Shown: positions 9,813-64,000, counted from the stretch's first letter. The stretch: DNA of 64,000 nucleotides from Erysipelotrichales bacterium (GCA_022508525.1 JAFLVA010000001.1:26879-90878); one strand, 5' to 3'. The notes: generated by a model not told the origin, from the letters alone. Program-made: numbers and translations.

Positions 9813-9907
9813 ATAAATTTGTATTCATTCGTAATAGCAAATCTCTATAAAAGTGTATCAAAAGTTTTAATTAGTATAAAGACAAGCAGACAATTTATAG
9901 CACAATA

Positions 9908-9937
9908 TTTGTTTGCTTATTTAACATATGGTATAAT
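9908..9937 (+). promoter_or_regulatory. Extended -10 promoter for the acyltransferase gene
   Basis: Perfect extended -10 element TGGTATAAT at 9929-9937, with a weak -35 (TTTGTT, 9908-9913, 18-nt spacer). It lies 37 nt upstream of the start codon at 9974. Confidence 0.65.
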
Positions 9938-9973
9938 ACAAATGTTATACAAGCATAGAAGGATAAATGAAAA

Positions 9974-10705
9974 ATGAAAACAAAAAAATTCAAACAAAAA
10001 CGAAAAGCGTGGTATCGCGGATTAAAGCATATTTTAAAAATAAGATATAAAAAATCGCAATTTATATATTTGGGAGAAAAACCAACAAATAACGCTATTA
10101 TTTTAAGTAATCATGTTGGTACTGATGCACCTCTTACTCTAGAGATTTATGCTGACTTTCCAATTCGCTTTTGGGGCACAAATGAAATGAATTCTGGCTT
10201 AAAAAAGATGTATAAATATCAAGCAGATGTTTATTATCATCTCAAAAAAGGATGGAATTTGCATTTATCCCGTTTATTTTGCTTGCTCGCAAGTCCACTT
10301 ACAAATATTTTTTATAAAGGATTAAATTTGATTTCCACCTATCAAGATACTCGTTTTAGAAAAACTCTTGACGAATCTCTTGTAGCAATAAAAGATAACG
10401 GAGAAAATATTGTTATTTTTCCTGAAGATAGCACGGATGGTTATTGCGATGAACTTAAAGCATTTTATGCGGGATTTGTACTACTTGCCGAAAAATGTAT
10501 GAAAAATGGAATTGATGTATCAATTTATGCAACTTATTTTAAGAAGAAAGAACATCAATATATATTTGATGCTCCAGCTAAATATAGTGAACTTAAAGCT
10601 CAATTTGGTGATCGAGCTGCAATAGCTGAACACTTATGTATGCGTAGCAATATAATAGGTAAAATGGAATTTGAAAAAACCAAAGATAAAAAAAGAAAAA
10701 GATAA
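9974..10705 (+). CDS. Lysophospholipid (1-acylglycerol-3-phosphate) acyltransferase family protein
   Basis: 243 aa with acyltransferase-type motifs: SNHVGTDAPL near residue 42, which corresponds to the catalytic HxxxxD block (here His and Asp are three residues apart), and FPEDSTDGY around residue 155 in place of the common FPEGTR block. Such proteins transfer an acyl chain to lysophosphatidate at the inner membrane face. The N-terminus is strongly basic (KTKKFKQKRKAW), suiting membrane-surface association. It stands alone between its own promoter and terminator. Substrate is inferred from family only; the divergent motif spacing leaves room for another acyl acceptor. Confidence 0.75.
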   Translation: MKTKKFKQKRKAWYRGLKHILKIRYKKSQFIYLGEKPTNNAIILSNHVGTDAPLTLEIYADFPIRFWGTNEMNSGLKKMYKYQADVYYHLKKGWNLHLSRLFCLLASPLTNIFYKGLNLISTYQDTRFRKTLDESLVAIKDNGENIVIFPEDSTDGYCDELKAFYAGFVLLAEKCMKNGIDVSIYATYFKKKEHQYIFDAPAKYSELKAQFGDRAAIAEHLCMRSNIIGKMEFEKTKDKKRKR

Positions 10706-10733
10706 ATATTTTTTGAAAACTAATTAGCGCAAA

Positions 10734-10766
10734 AAAACGAACCAAGATATAAGAATGGTTCGTTTT
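10734..10766 (+). terminator. Terminator between convergent genes
   Basis: 11-bp perfect inverted repeat AAAACGAACCA / TGGTTCGTTTT with an 11-nt loop; A run on one side and T run on the other, so it may work in both directions. Confidence 0.75.
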
Positions 10767-10841
10767 AATTTTAAGTTTGTTTTGTTGATTTAACTTTTGT
10801 ATAAACTTTTAAAATAAGTAATTAATAATGTGTCGAAGTTA

Positions 10842-11201
10842 TTAAATAATCATTATAATTAAAATAACAATCATGACAATTATAAATGCAAAAAACAATG
10901 AAAATCCTGCTCTAAAATTATTCATCAAAAAGTTGTAATTAATTTTATTGCCTTTTTCGCATTGTACACTAGGACCAGCAAATTTGCCTTTATCGGTTAT
11001 TAAAATATAATCTCCATCTAGATCAATTATATTAATTCCATTGAGAACTGTACGTTGTATATTATTAAACGTCACTATTGTTCCTTGTGGAAGGCATGGA
11101 TATTCTTGTCCATCATAAAATGCGACAAAAGTGTTTGATTGTCTTTTTAAAGAAAATTCTTTGGTTTTGTTTGGTGTTTCTAATGTGAATTTTGTTTTCA
11201 T
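10842..11201 (-). CDS. Hypothetical protein with C-terminal membrane anchor
   Basis: 119 aa. The first 85 residues are a polar, beta-rich region with no recognised motif, followed by a single strongly hydrophobic segment (FSLFFAFIIVMIVILIIMII) that runs to the very end. This layout is that of a tail-anchored membrane protein. A good ribosome site (AGGAGGATAACT before the ATG) supports the start. It lies 10 nt downstream of the XRE regulator gene on the same strand, so the two are likely co-transcribed. Function unknown. Confidence 0.6.
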   Translation of the reverse strand: MKTKFTLETPNKTKEFSLKRQSNTFVAFYDGQEYPCLPQGTIVTFNNIQRTVLNGINIIDLDGDYILITDKGKFAGPSVQCEKGNKINYNFLMNNFRAGFSLFFAFIIVMIVILIIMII

Positions 11202-11211
11202 AGTTATCCTC

Positions 11212-11961
11212 CTAATATATTAAATTTTGTTCTGCTTTATGATAAAGGACATTGGCGATGCAGGCACCAATTCCTAAAAGCATATAAACGAATAAGAAAA
11301 CGGAATAATAAGCAATCATTCCTTGTAAATCTACAGTGTCCATGAATATTATAATAGCAATCATAAACCACATAGCAGCAACCAAGTTTACGGGAGCAAT
11401 TAGTTTTAACCATTTTGCATATGCTTCATGTTGAATAAGTACATGATGCTTTATTTTGATTATAGTTCTTATATAATTTACAGAACCTATTATATTAACA
11501 ATTGCTAAAATAATAACAACAATGATGGAAATTATATCTAATGGAACAATTAGTGTGATTAGTGATAAAAGACTTAAAATTGCACACACAAGATTATATA
11601 TTAAAAATGTCTTGGTTTGTTTGTCATCTCTTAAACGTGGAGCATGGTATCTAGCTCGTTGAGTTGTTTGTTTTGGCATTTCAATTTCGCTTTTATCATC
11701 CGCAGTATTTTTATTATTTTCCTTGTTATTTTCAGACTTTGATAAATATTCAATCTCTTGTGAAAGGAGTTCTTCAATAGTCACCTTAAAATATTCGGAT
11801 ATTTTCATTAATGTTTTAATATCTGGTAATGAACGTGCGGTTTCCCATTTAGACACTGCTTGAGATGTTACATTAAATATTGTCGCAATGTCATCTTGTT
11901 TTAATTGATGTAATTGACGTAAATATTTAAGATTTTTAGCAAAGCATTCTATATCTGTCAT
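11212..11961 (-). CDS. XRE-family regulator with C-terminal membrane domain
   Basis: An N-terminal HTH_3/XRE domain (residues about 6-65; NVTSQAVSKWETARSLPD is the recognition region) is followed by a polar linker and four predicted membrane segments, giving a membrane-bound regulator of about 249 aa. The frame opens at a GTG (11970) but that codon overlaps the Shine-Dalgarno GGAGGTG (11968-11974); the ATG at 11961 has correct spacing and is taken as the start. It forms a unit with the tail-anchored protein downstream, which suggests the two act together at the membrane. What it senses is unknown. Confidence 0.75.
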   Translation of the reverse strand: MTDIECFAKNLKYLRQLHQLKQDDIATIFNVTSQAVSKWETARSLPDIKTLMKISEYFKVTIEELLSQEIEYLSKSENNKENNKNTADDKSEIEMPKQTTQRARYHAPRLRDDKQTKTFLIYNLVCAILSLLSLITLIVPLDIISIIVVIILAIVNIIGSVNYIRTIIKIKHHVLIQHEAYAKWLKLIAPVNLVAAMWFMIAIIIFMDTVDLQGMIAYYSVFLFVYMLLGIGACIANVLYHKAEQNLIY

Positions 11962-11981
11962 TTGTTGCACCTCCTTATTTA

Positions 11982-12041
11982 ATCTTAAATAGAAGAGTTA
12001 AAAGAATCAACCAATAGTTGGTTGGTTTACCCAACTATTGG
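11982..12041 (-). promoter_or_regulatory. Promoter and inverted-repeat operator of the XRE gene
   Basis: On the minus strand TTGATT (12005-12010) and TAAGAT (11982-11987) form -35/-10 boxes with a 17-nt spacer. Directly upstream of the -35 lies an 11-bp perfect inverted repeat, CCAATAGTTGG (12011-12021) and CCAACTATTGG (12031-12041). The position suits an operator or activator site, possibly bound by the XRE protein itself. Confidence 0.55.
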
Positions 12042-59230: not shown

Positions 59231-59282
59231 AAAGACTGTTTGACAATCTAAGTTAAATACTTGGCGAATAACAGTCTTTTTT
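59231..59282 (+). terminator. Terminator of the TasA-like cluster
   Basis: 10-bp arms AAAGACTGTT / AACAGTCTTT with a 29-nt internal region and a T run; closes the operon 12 nt after the last gene. Confidence 0.7.
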
Positions 59283-59348
59283 ATTGCACATTTTTTAAAA
59301 TTAATCATATTATATTATTTTGCCTATTAAATTTATATTGGTGATAAT

Positions 59349-60362
59349 ATGAAATTTTTATTAAAAATATTTTTTGTCTTGACATCACTTATTGGAATAA
59401 CATCTAAAACTGAGCAAGTAAATGATGGTATTTATGCAAGATCATATGTTGTGATGGAACAAAATAGTGGAAATCTATTAGAAAGTAAAGATTGTAATTT
59501 AAAAAGAAGTGTAGCAAGTGTATCTAAAATAATGACTGCAATTCTTGCAATTGAAAGTGACAATCTGTTTAATGCTGTTACGGTTGGTGAAGAAATAAAA
59601 ACGATTGTAGGAAGTTCCTTATATCTTGCGGAAGGCACAAATGTAAATATTATTGAATTAGTGTACGGACTTCTTCTTCGTAGTGGAAACGATGCTGCTG
59701 TTACTATTGCCAAAAACGTTGGTGGATCAATTGAAGATTTTGTGTCAATGATGAATAACAAAGCTCAAGAGATAGGCATGAAAAACACCGTTTTTTCTAA
59801 TCCTAGTGGCTTAGATATGTATGATGAGGGAAATGTATCTACTAGCTATGATTTAGCTTTATTGATGCGTTATTGCATGAATAATGGTACATTTAGAGAA
59901 ATCAATAGAACACAGACATTTAAATCATCTGTAAAAGGCACATGGTCTAATAAGCATAAGTTAATTCAAAATTATGAATACGCAATTGGTGGAAAGACAG
60001 GATATACCAAAAAGGCCAAAAGAACACTTATTACAAGTGCAAGAAAAGATGATCTAGAATTAATAGTAGTCACTCTTGATTGTGGCTCGGATTTTGCGTT
60101 TCATAAAGCTAAATTTGAGCGATACTTTGCAAGTCATACGTATCTTACTTTTTTGAATAAGGGCACTAATTATATTCTTAATTATGAAATTGTTGTAGAT
60201 AAAGAATATGGAATAATAATTGAAAATTTAAAGTTAAAAAATGTTACGAAACATTATCAAATAAATCCAAAAAATAATGAAGTTAAAATGTATCTTGTTT
60301 TTGATGATAATAGTTCAATTGAAGTTGGAAGAGCTAAAGTCATAACTTTTAAAATCAATTAG
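59349..60362 (+). CDS. D-alanyl-D-alanine carboxypeptidase (DacB/DacF-like)
   Basis: 337 aa penicillin-binding enzyme with signal peptide (FLLKIFFVLTSLIGITS). Catalytic motifs of the serine type: SVSKIM (SxxK), SGN in LLLRSGNDAAV, and KTG in GGKTGYTKKAKR. It trims D-Ala from peptidoglycan peptides. In Bacillus the spore-cortex enzyme DacB forms an operon with spmA and spmB; here spmA follows 10 nt later, supporting a sporulation role. The exact paralogue (DacB or DacF) is not certain. Confidence 0.88.
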   Translation: MKFLLKIFFVLTSLIGITSKTEQVNDGIYARSYVVMEQNSGNLLESKDCNLKRSVASVSKIMTAILAIESDNLFNAVTVGEEIKTIVGSSLYLAEGTNVNIIELVYGLLLRSGNDAAVTIAKNVGGSIEDFVSMMNNKAQEIGMKNTVFSNPSGLDMYDEGNVSTSYDLALLMRYCMNNGTFREINRTQTFKSSVKGTWSNKHKLIQNYEYAIGGKTGYTKKAKRTLITSARKDDLELIVVTLDCGSDFAFHKAKFERYFASHTYLTFLNKGTNYILNYEIVVDKEYGIIIENLKLKNVTKHYQINPKNNEVKMYLVFDDNSSIEVGRAKVITFKIN

Positions 60363-60372
60363 GAGACGCACG

Positions 60373-60705
60373 ATGAATAAAATTTGGATAGGAATAATAG
60401 TTTTATGTGTAGTGTATGGTTTAGTAACAGGAAGATTTGAAGCAATGACAAGTGGAATACTCGCTCTTCCAGAAGAAGGATTAGGATTAGTTTGTACTTT
60501 AGTATTTTCCGCATGCTTTTGGTCGGGCATTATGACTATTATGTATGACTCAGGATTTATTAACAAATTAGCAAAATTACTTAATCCATTTTTAAGAAAG
60601 ATTATGCCTAATTTAAATGACGATGAGGCTTATAAATATGTAGCAATGAATATTGCTGCAAATATATTTGGTTTAGGTTTTGCGGCAACTCCTGCAGGAG
60701 AGTAA
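60373..60705 (+). pseudogene. spmA: Spore maturation protein A, truncated by insertion
   Basis: Only 110 aa of an expected near 190-200. The N-terminal half is good: ILALPEEGLGLVCTLVFSACFW, then NDDEAYKYVAMNIAANIFGLGFAATPAG, which in SpmA proteins continues with LKAME. Here the codon after Gly is GAG followed by TAA (60703-60705), and the next 100 nt have no SpmA similarity in any frame. The break at about 60697-60700 therefore looks like an insertion. The other half and spmB are not in the window. AGGAG supports the ATG. Confidence 0.75.
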
Positions 60706-60814
60706 ATTGGGTATAAATTTTGATTAATGTTACATTTTTTTCAATCGAGTTGACTTTAAACAAATTGTTATGTTACTTTTATTTTGATATTTTATAAAGA
60801 GGTGCAAATATTGT

Positions 60815-61960
60815 ATGAAAGTAACAAAACAGGATTATATACTAAAATTATCACATTGCAAACTTATTATAGGCAATGGATTTGATTTGCATTGTGGATT
60901 AAAATCAAGCTATAGTGATTTTTTTGATGAGAATAAAAAAGAATATTTATCGATGTTAGAATTTCTTAAGTCTGTTTGGTTTGTAGGGAATTTTAGTAGT
61001 TTATTAGATCAATCAAATTCGTACTATGATGATTTTAAATCAAAAGTAGAAGTTTATGATATGTTTAATATTTGGGATTGTTTTTTTGCTCTGTCCTTTG
61101 AAAACAGACTTGATAAGTCGTTGTGGTGCAACATTGAGTATGAAATGAAAAAATCATTTGTTCAAAGGGACCAGTCATATCCTAATAGAAGTTTTTGGGA
61201 AGAGGTTTTTGAATTAGTAACAGAAGGATATGGTTCTATTAAATTTACACAAAAAAGTTTTTTATGTGCCGCATTTATTAATGCGAGAACGAAAAAAAGC
61301 ACCTTTAAAACAATAGATTTATTTTACAAGTATCTTTTAAAAGAGTTAAATGATTTTGAAGTGAGATTTGGCAAATTTATTGCAAAACAAATAGATGATA
61401 AATATAAATCTAAAGCAAATGCATTCATTAGGAAAATAGGAGCACAAGTTTATTCAATAGATTCATTTAATTACACATCTTTTTTGTACAATGGTTGTAT
61501 CGATTTTAAAAATATTAATGGTAATTTAGAAAAAATTGAAAAAGGAATCAGTAATATGATTTTTGGCATTGATTCTACTAAAATATCTCCAGAAGCTCCC
61601 GAATATATTTTTACAAAATCATTTAGAAGATTATCGCTTCAATCGTCTGATAATTTTATTATTGAAAATTATCATTTTAAAAATATAATAATTTTTGGGC
61701 ATTCGTTAAATGAGCAAGATTATAATTATTATTTTCCAATTTTCGAACAAATGAAATTATCTGATTTAACAGAAAATAGCACTATTGTCATACTATATAA
61801 GGTTTATGACGAAATTAAACGAGAAGAGATTGTTGAGGAACTATGGAAAAGCGTTAGCAAAATGTTATATGCTTATGATAGTTTCAAAAATATTAATAAT
61901 GGTAACAGATTAATGGAAATGCTTTCTTCAAATAATAGACTTATATTAAGAGAAATTTAG
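60815..61960 (+). CDS. AbiH-family abortive infection protein
   Basis: 381 aa. N-terminal LIIGNGFDLHCGLKSSYSDF (residues about 16-35) and C-terminal IIFGHSLNEQDYNYYFPIFEQ (about 293-313) are the two AbiH blocks. AbiH genes protect lactococci and others from phage; mechanism not settled, and the N-terminal glycine-rich motif suggests nucleotide binding. It is the first gene after the spmA break, 28 nt upstream of the HNH gene, suggesting a two-gene defence unit. Weak promoter upstream; AGAGGTG site. Confidence 0.85.
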   Translation: MKVTKQDYILKLSHCKLIIGNGFDLHCGLKSSYSDFFDENKKEYLSMLEFLKSVWFVGNFSSLLDQSNSYYDDFKSKVEVYDMFNIWDCFFALSFENRLDKSLWCNIEYEMKKSFVQRDQSYPNRSFWEEVFELVTEGYGSIKFTQKSFLCAAFINARTKKSTFKTIDLFYKYLLKELNDFEVRFGKFIAKQIDDKYKSKANAFIRKIGAQVYSIDSFNYTSFLYNGCIDFKNINGNLEKIEKGISNMIFGIDSTKISPEAPEYIFTKSFRRLSLQSSDNFIIENYHFKNIIIFGHSLNEQDYNYYFPIFEQMKLSDLTENSTIVILYKVYDEIKREEIVEELWKSVSKMLYAYDSFKNINNGNRLMEMLSSNNRLILREI

Positions 61961-61987
61961 TGATACTCATAGGAGAATTGATATTAT

Positions 61988-62851
61988 ATGGAATTTAAAT
62001 TGAAAGAAAATACAAGAAATTTAACGAATGACGAGTTATTACAAGACATTAGAGAAGTAGCTATAAAATTAAATAAAGATACGATAACCACCAGTGAATA
62101 TTCTAAATATGGGAAAGCAGATATTAGGACAATTTATAGAAGATTTGGTTCGTTTAAAAAGGCTCTTGAGTTATGTGGATTAAAGACAAAAGGACACAAT
62201 TTTAGAGTTGCTGAAAACGATTTTATTGAAGATGTGAAGATGGTTGCCAAGATTTTAAATAAAAGAAGTATAACTACAGGCGAGTATAAAATTTATGGAA
62301 AATATGATTGGACACATAAAGTAAAGAAATATAAATCTTGGAATAATATTTTGGCGTTGGCCGGCTTAGAAAAAACTAATAACAAAAGAAATACAACTGA
62401 TGAAATGTTACTTGAGGAAATATTAAAAATATGGATTTTGTTAGAACGACAACCAACAACTGCAGATATTAGAAATGGAGTGTCTATTTATAGTTTGAAT
62501 ACTTATGCTCGTCATTTTGGAAGTTGGTCCAATGCATTAAAAAAATTTGTGGAATGGATTAACGATGATAATGTTAAACATAGTTCTAATGTTGAACAAG
62601 AAGAAATAATACCTTCTGAGAGTTTAAAACATAAAACACCTAGAGAAATAAACTTAAGACTGCGTTATCTTGTATTAAAAAGAGATAATTTTAAATGCTG
62701 TATTTGTGGGTCTTCTCCTGCTAAAGATCCAAGTGTAGAGTTGCATATTGATCATATTGTTCCTTGGTCTAAGGGTGGAGAAACAATAATAGATAATTTG
62801 CAAACACTATGTAGTAAGTGCAATCTAGGGAAAAGTAACATTGATAGTTAA
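61988..62851 (+). CDS. HNH endonuclease with homing-associated repeats
   Basis: 287 aa. Three copies of a roughly 50-residue DNA-binding repeat (residues about 14-64, 76-128, 137-190), each with a TTSEYSKYGKADIRTIYRRFGSFKKAL-like core: GKADIRTIYRRFGS, GKYDWTHKVKKYKS, SIYSLNTYARHFGS. These look like the HNH/homing-endonuclease associated repeat. The C-terminal HNH nuclease has CCICGSSPAKDP, LHIDHIVPWSKGG, NLQTLCSKCNLGKSN (two CxxC and the HxH/N core). It could be a homing-type nuclease or the nuclease part of a defence pair with AbiH. Confidence 0.85.
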   Translation: MEFKLKENTRNLTNDELLQDIREVAIKLNKDTITTSEYSKYGKADIRTIYRRFGSFKKALELCGLKTKGHNFRVAENDFIEDVKMVAKILNKRSITTGEYKIYGKYDWTHKVKKYKSWNNILALAGLEKTNNKRNTTDEMLLEEILKIWILLERQPTTADIRNGVSIYSLNTYARHFGSWSNALKKFVEWINDDNVKHSSNVEQEEIIPSESLKHKTPREINLRLRYLVLKRDNFKCCICGSSPAKDPSVELHIDHIVPWSKGGETIIDNLQTLCSKCNLGKSNIDS

Positions 62852-62974
62852 CAAACTGATTTTTTGTTCCAACCTTGTTAATATCGCACATACAAAATTG
62901 AAATAACATTATAAAACAAGGATATTGCTTAAAGCGTTCATACGCAAGTAAAATTAGACTTTAAATAAACAAAA

Positions 62975-63042
62975 AACCATTTAGAAATGTCGAATGTGCA
63001 TGGGCTATCTCTAATAGCCCATGTCAGACGGACTAAATGGTT
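62975..63042 (-). repeat. Nested inverted repeat / likely terminator of the XRE gene
   Basis: Outer arms AACCATTTAG (62975-62984) and CTAAATGGTT (63033-63042); inner perfect hairpin CATGGGCTAT / ATAGCCCATG (62999-63023, 5-nt loop). On the minus strand the last arm runs into six T, as a terminator of the XRE gene would. The double structure is larger than a normal terminator. Confidence 0.6.
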
Positions 63043-63086
63043 ATTTTATTGTCGAATTTTTGCGATTTGCCGTGAATTATGTTGAA

Positions 63087-63464
63087 TTATAAAATGTCGT
63101 TTTTTAACTGAATTAAAGGTGCTTTTCCCTCTACTAAAGTTATATCATCTGATGAGTCAATATTTAACGTTCTGATATTATTTGGATATGAGATTTTACC
63201 AGCTTGTTTATATAGCAAGAATTTTTCTTTTGATAATGTGAATTTTTTACCTAACGCCTCAACAATAATACCTTCATTAGATCTACATAAAAAGTAATCA
63301 GTTGTGACTTGTAGTAAGTCACAAAGTAAACATAACTTTTCAGAATCGAATCCTGTGCGCTGCGACTGTATATTAATAATTATATTTCTTGATAAACCAA
63401 TAAGCTTTTCGTAATCTTTTTGTTTATAGCCAAATTCTTTTGACAACTCTTCCAAACGATTCAT
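63087..63464 (-). CDS. XRE/Cro-CI-type repressor-like protein
   Basis: 125 aa. N-terminal HTH region (LEELSKEFGYKQKDYEKLIGLSRNIIINIQSQ, LCDLLQVTTDYFLCRSNE) of the Cro/C1 type; the C-terminal half is short with no recognised domain. The frame opens at TTG 63473, and ATG 63464 is taken as the start. Divergent from the SymE-like gene across a region with three TGTGTTAA-type half sites, as in phage or plasmid switches. Confidence 0.7.
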   Translation of the reverse strand: MNRLEELSKEFGYKQKDYEKLIGLSRNIIINIQSQRTGFDSEKLCLLCDLLQVTTDYFLCRSNEGIIVEALGKKFTLSKEKFLLYKQAGKISYPNNIRTLNIDSSDDITLVEGKAPLIQLKNDIL

Positions 63465-63507
63465 AATTTTCAACTCACTTTATAGGTTAATTTTACATTA
63501 TTTTCTA

Positions 63508-63599
63508 TTAAATGTGTTAAAAATACGAAATTATTTTAAAAAAGTGTTGAATATGTGTTGATATAACATTATAATAATTAAAAAGTGTTAAATTAACAC
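63508..63599 (+). promoter_or_regulatory. Promoter and operators between XRE and SymE-like genes
   Basis: Forward promoter TTGAAT (63547-63552), 17-nt spacer, TATAAT (63570-63575). A perfect palindrome GTGTTAA-A-TTAACAC lies at 63585-63599 just after the start point; related sites are TGTTGATATAACA in the spacer (about 63556-63568) and TGTGTTAA near 63510. Repeated operators around divergent genes suit the XRE repressor. Confidence 0.65.
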
Positions 63600-63618
63600 A
63601 TTTGAAAAGGAGAAAACA

Positions 63619-63807
63619 ATGACACATTACGTAACTTTATGTAAGAGAATTACTAATTCATATCATGCGAAAGTATATCCATATCTTCTAATACAAGGAT
63701 TTTGGTTAAAAGATTTAGGATTTAATGTGGGAGACCGTGTGTCTATTGATTTGGTGGATGATGCATTAGTTATTAAAAAAGTAGGCACATGGATTGATAA
63801 AAAATAA
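63619..63807 (+). CDS. SymE-like / AbrB-like small protein
   Basis: 62 aa. YPYLLIQGFWLKDLGFNVGDRVSIDLVDDALVIKK matches the SymE-type pattern (ligand-like LxGxWLxxxGFxxGxxVxVxVxxGxLVI), an AbrB/MazE-related fold. SymE of E. coli acts as a toxin or nucleoid-associated protein; small SymE-like ORFs are frequent in mobile elements. AAAAGGAG gives a strong start. Controlled by the divergent XRE protein and its operators, by position. Confidence 0.7.
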   Translation: MTHYVTLCKRITNSYHAKVYPYLLIQGFWLKDLGFNVGDRVSIDLVDDALVIKKVGTWIDKK

Positions 63808-63899
63808 TTAGTAGATGTGCAAATAATGCACCATTTTGTCACTCATAATCAAGTATGAAGTAAGACTTTTAATTCATATATTGATGTGAGGGGATATAA

Positions 63900-64000
63900 A
63901 TGAGGGCACAGGAATTAAAAATAAATAAAATTAATTATAAAATTGAATTTTCTTTTTCTGATAATTCTATATCGCTTTTTGAATTTATTATGAATCGCAT
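63900..64000 (+). CDS. Start of an unidentified gene (3' end outside window)
   Basis: ATG at 63900 after GAGGGGAT, open to the window end (33 codons, beginning MRAQELKINKINYKIEFSF). Too short to identify. It follows the SymE-like gene by 92 nt on the same strand and may be the next gene of the inserted element. Confidence 0.5.
   Translation, partial: MRAQELKINKINYKIEFSFSDNSISLFEFIMNR

Follow-up and report, generated by a model that had tools for sequence, protein, structure and literature searches.

An interrupted spmA gene and its neighbourhood

The window, the whole 64,000-nucleotide stretch analysed here, corresponds to bases 26879-90878 of contig C1 of an Erysipelotrichales genome (G000), a 1.47-Mb draft in 52 contigs that is probably metagenome-derived. 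The dacB-spmA-spmB operon begins near the end of the window with a dacB-like gene, followed by an ORF of 110 codons (60373-60705) that encodes the N-terminal part of SpmA and matches the Gate domain in part (Table 1). Homology to the spmA of congeners stops at the last base of codon 109 (GGA, window position 60699), and residue E110 and the stop codon are supplied by inserted DNA. This bears out an earlier note on the window, which had placed a cut at 110 residues within the conserved ATPAG block. Its statement that the window holds no remainder of spmA is likewise correct: an insertion of 6,184 bp splits the gene after codon 109, and the remainder lies on the same contig, 6.2 kb downstream of the break and 2.9 kb past the window end. 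Where the note had anticipated an LKAME-like start and then spmB, the 3' half (LKAIKRMKELSKEDDK...) opens with LKAIK and is followed by spmB. Both halves of spmA are thus retained, and the 3' half is open.

Table 1. Features of the spmA locus and of split genes in related genomes. Window-equivalent (w.e.) coordinates are locus L002 positions plus 59121 and lie beyond the window on the same contig.
Feature	Position	Strand	Basis
dacB-like D-Ala-D-Ala carboxypeptidase, first gene of dacB-spmA-spmB operon	59349..60362	+	PF00768 3.3e-56
spmA 5' half, codons 1-109	60373..60699	+	Gate domain; DNA identity with uninterrupted spmA in three congeners as far as 60699
Left attachment-site repeat GCAACTCCTGCAGGA (attL)	60685..60699	+	Junction comparison
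In-window part of 6,184-bp element (element end w.e. 66876)	60693..64000	.	Collinearity with G003
AbiH-family gene (cargo)	60815..61960	+	PF14253 3.1e-16; PADLOC AbiH 1.2e-6
Three homing-endonuclease-associated repeats and HNH nuclease domain (cargo)	61988..62851	+	PF18780 1.5e-32; PF01844 6.6e-14
HTH regulator, divergent from recombinase genes	63087..63473	-	PF12844 1.9e-5; PHROG transcriptional regulator 4.3e-12
SymE/AbrB-like small protein	63619..63807	+	PF08845 1.2e-7; counterpart in G042:C3
53-aa ORF, overlaps recombinase start	63900 to ~64061	+	Sequence
Large serine recombinase (LSR)	w.e. 64036-65697	+	Resolvase, Recombinase, zinc-ribbon domains
FRG-domain gene	w.e. 65706-66782	-	PADLOC candidate defence family PDC-S15
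Right repeat GCGACACCAGCAGGA	w.e. 66869-66883		
spmA 3' half	w.e. 66884-67150	+	
spmB	w.e. 67140-67664	+	
spoVD-splitting elements	L092/L067 (G042:C1), L068 (G050:C2), L094/L066 (G040:C22/C14)		
mraY parts	L070 10771-10962 and L098 13319-14119 (G082:C17)		

The junctions carry an imperfect direct repeat in which 12 of 15 bp are equal (GCAACTCCTGCAGGA on the left, GCGACACCAGCAGGA on the right), in line with the short repeat that had been expected around CCTGCAGGA. We infer a crossover after ACTCC, at 60692; the element size of 6,184 bp rests on this placement at ACxCC. The inserted element is free of Ns, and G+C content is 26.8% in the element versus 31.0% in the flanks. Joined in silico, the flanks yield a 197-codon spmA identical to the intact gene of three congeners at 193, 188 and 175 of 197 residues (98, 95 and 89%), the first value being that of the closest congener, G003. 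In G003, spmA is a single uninterrupted gene of 197 codons, collinear on both sides and without the element. Specifically, BLAST aligned positions 167-1578 and 7748-8537 of L002 with positions 9842-11253 and 11239-12028 of G003 locus L089, so that the flanking alignments meet at the break with an overlap of 15 bp, which is the junction repeat. A chance break is excluded by the uninterrupted, collinear gene in G003 together with the meeting of these alignments and their overlap.

The element is present in one of four congeners, counting G000, and a search at E <= 1e-20 turned up its recombinase in none of the other three. The earlier note had named two patterns that would refute its reading, namely close relatives with an intact short spmA and the same downstream genes, or a genome devoid of the 3' half; in close relatives spmA is instead full-length and these genes are missing, and G000 does carry the 3' half. 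A dyad test of the reconstructed attachment sites was weak, with about 10% (attP) and 1.5% (attB) of shuffles equally good. Synonymous and nonsynonymous changes polarised to the G000 branch numbered 13 and 2 in the 5' half and 12 and 1 in the 3' half, a mostly synonymous pattern in both halves that would fit either regular restoration or a young insertion.

Gene content of the inserted element

The AbiH gene, HNH nuclease and phage-like switch that had been read from the window all have matches, the last as the HTH and SymE-like genes, and a recombinase predicted past position 64000 was found as well. This LSR has a Resolvase catalytic domain, a Recombinase domain and a zinc ribbon, all above Pfam cut-offs; its ORF spans 565 aa, and the ATG at window-equivalent 64036 is the better start, giving 553 aa. 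By inspection, a protein resembling the HTH regulator adjoins a related recombinase in G042:C3, and small ORFs comparable to the 53-aa ORF precede related recombinases. The 53-aa ORF had no family match in profile searches, including PADLOC and PHROG, and no recognised directionality factor was seen among the element genes; this ORF is perhaps a candidate recombination directionality factor.

The cargo likely includes anti-phage genes. No phage structural or replication genes were found in the element, its PHROG matches being to regulator, HNH, integrase/invertase and unknown-function families. One low-scoring PHROG match to a terminase small subunit sits on the HNH domain. A promoter scan 5' of the recombinase returned one CATATATT box, about the chance expectation in such AT-rich DNA, and no match to the stricter sigma-E/K -35/-10 pattern. 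Elsewhere, a CATATTA box 5' of dacB (window 59240-59348) is common to G000 and two congeners, with a shorter CATAT in the third, and CATAA 5' of spoIVA (L002 18338-18447) recurs among the congeners compared; these CATA boxes are suggestive of sigma-E type promoters.

Related breaks and sporulation genes in other genomes

Across about 100 genomes of the class with an spmA gene, a break in it was seen in two, G000 and G082 (same order), both at codon ~109. In G082, a first spmA copy matches a complete second copy without a difference for 300 bp and departs from it right after ACTCC, the same point as the G000 break; foreign small ORFs take up the next 1.8 kb. This is suggestive of a second break at this site, which may have come about by duplication plus insertion. 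The G082 locus (C21, L088 6600-11060) is rearranged, with a 5' copy that has a stop at codon 3 and then the full copy; a third, small C-terminal spmA fragment lies beyond a DUF4143 ATPase gene.

In a tree, the G000 recombinase groups with those of elements in G040, G042 and G050 (support 99/96). Elements of this recombinase clade split spoVD at the KTG motif in the same three genomes, in which no unsplit spoVD copy was seen. On the intact G045 protein, the boundary between the left and right parts maps to residues 497-502; this reference protein matches the TIGR02214 spoVD model at 4.5e-195, just under the cut-off. The two known element sizes are ~11 and ~37 kb, and tandem serine recombinases are carried. 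Near-identity of the first recombinase between G040 and G042, which belong to different families, points to recent transfer. In addition, a different LSR-bearing element of ~13.7 kb splits mraY in G082 near the TPTMGG motif. A truncated NMT1-like transporter gene is found near the fifth recombinase of this clade (G042:C3), so the clade may have targets other than sporulation genes. There (L069 2649-12167), a similar module of HTH, SymE-like, small ORF and recombinase genes is accompanied by an AAA ATPase, an RNase III-like gene and other cargo.

Viral contigs yielded neither close relatives of the recombinase nor SpmA fragments. SpmA residues 1-102 do occur in a 'Bacteriophage sp.' record, where the gene simply runs off the end of the contig, and recombinase relatives at 33-37% in Clostridia contigs are apparently ordinary mobile-element recombinases that do not adjoin spmA.

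G000 carries spo0A, spoIVA (TIGR02836, above cut-off) and spmA/B, a statement of gene content that does not extend to the whole sporulation set. Across 58 genomes of relatives, Spo0A, SpoIVA and SpmA occur in 15, 15 and 14, largely the same ones and G000 among them, and most relatives without SpmA are missing both Spo0A and SpoIVA. An MraY-family gene (PF00953) is present in 11 of the 58, all SpmA carriers, and was not found in those without SpmA, several of which are rated complete. Given this confinement to SpmA genomes, peptidoglycan precursor synthesis seems to accompany sporulation in this order; vegetative cells may have no peptidoglycan wall, with the pathway reserved for the spore. The G000 draft had no PF00953 match, perhaps owing to an incomplete draft or a split gene.

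Explanations and comparison with known systems

Taken as a whole, an LSR element in spmA with skin-like excision is the best explanation, and we consider it moderately probable. An integrative element of 6,184 bp, not of phage type and mobilised by the LSR that it encodes, would have entered the conserved ATPAG block of spmA. The same enzyme plus a directionality factor, perhaps the 53-aa ORF product, would run the reaction backwards and make the dacB-spmA-spmB operon whole again. Excision would occur in sporulating mother cells, or some of them, where spmA is needed and the loss of DNA is not inherited; the germ line would thereby retain the element and its defence cargo at low cost. The parts of this explanation differ in strength. 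LSR-mediated, site-specific insertion almost certainly produced the break, since both halves, the recombinase, the repeat and spmB stand on one contig without Ns, and the element can probably still excise. A tie between excision and sporulation, proposed by analogy with skin, SP-beta, vfbin, gin and yin, is evenly balanced. It is favoured by the sporulation genes of the host, by the splitting of spoVD by the same clade and of mraY as well, and by the status of spmA and spoVD in Bacillus subtilis, where dacB-spmAB and spoVD are sigma-E controlled and needed for cortex formation (PMC517825).

An assembly or binning artefact, in which an unrelated contig was joined into spmA, might be suspected in a fragmented, probably metagenome-derived draft of 52 contigs. 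It is nevertheless very improbable: both flanks are collinear with the congener as far as a shared 15 bp, synteny continues along the contig on both sides without Ns, and the insert brings a recombinase of its own and a junction repeat. Equally hard to credit is a functional short SpmA of 110 aa, with no role for the 3' piece. The ORF does end cleanly with one extra residue, but full-length SpmA frames measure ~185-220 residues in nearly all sampled carriers, many invariant residues lie past codon 110, and the 3' half is open and conserved.

A plain integrative defence island, seated at a conserved site in a growth-dispensable gene, has an appreciable probability, if one short of even. Here spmA would be disabled, carriers would lose the element or make poorer spores, and excision would be sporadic or stress-induced and unlinked to sporulation. 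The cargo of AbiH, HNH and FRG/PDC-S15 genes is consistent with such an island, as are the lack of a clear sporulation promoter and the restriction of the element to one of the four congeners. Given this distribution, the element may be too young for a permanent loss of spmA to have left visible decay. The related spoVD and mraY elements, moreover, look mobile or conjugative, and two were recently transferred across families. Against it, the targets in this order are repeatedly sporulation or cortex-type genes, and both halves of spmA are open, as expected, though not proven, with restoration when needed. A wider proposal, which we put forward tentatively and regard as rather doubtful, is that in this small-genome order of Bacilli this LSR-element clade specialises in splitting sporulation-only genes (spmA, spoVD), the peptidoglycan and cortex genes being kept only in sporulating lineages, and that the germ line retains the defence cargo, with excision confined to the mother cell. 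As a natural experiment, the lineage would help to tell whether tolerance of such elements reflects the silence of sporulation genes during growth or the timely excision of the elements.

TnpX/Tn4451-type LSR elements and ICEs of Firmicutes have a small ORF just 5' of the recombinase gene (tnpW-tnpX). The spmA element resembles the TnpX/Tn4451-type elements in its recombinase architecture and in the small ORF before the recombinase; the 53-aa ORF had no TnpW match in family and PHROG profile searches, and membership of the same family is not implied. Judged by its anatomy, the spmA element is a sporulation-gene intervening element. The sporulation-time excisions known from Bacillus, Geobacillus and clostridial species mostly involve phage-derived DNA. 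If this explanation is true, spmA would be a new target, and its element, small, with defence genes and free of phage genes, would be new as well, as would a lineage of small genomes where serine-recombinase elements interrupt each of spmA, spoVD and mraY. Reported targets are sigK, spsM, spoVFB, spoVR, gerE and yabG (PMC4191935, PMC5595907, PMC10747680). In the open-access papers searched, spmA is not among them and spoVD is not linked with a serine recombinase, earlier mention elsewhere being possible.

Like skin in sigK of B. subtilis and Clostridioides difficile (PMC5025042, PMC4191935), the spmA element has a serine recombinase within an element that interrupts a mother-cell gene, and excision would restore the frame. 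Skin is prophage-like and its excision from sigK is under sporulation control, whereas the spmA element is without phage genes and its excision is predicted from sequence. SP-beta in spsM, an active prophage, vfbin in spoVFB and vrin in spoVR carry phage-related genes and have other targets (PMC4191935). The yin element in yabG of Clostridium botulinum V73 likewise has an LSR with Recombinase and zinc-ribbon domains and occurs in a single strain, the site in relatives being intact; yin is, however, a prophage with a 14-bp repeat in a gene other than spmA, and its excised and circular forms were shown (PMC10747680). The gin element in gerE of Bacillus cereus ATCC10987 is, like the G000 element, of non-phage type, bears recombinase genes and splits a mother-cell sporulation gene at a precise junction (PMC5595907). 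At 28.6 kb and with three recombinases, gin has a demonstrated sporulation-specific rearrangement (PMC5595907), whereas the spmA element, known from sequence alone, is 6.2 kb long with one recombinase and defence-type cargo.
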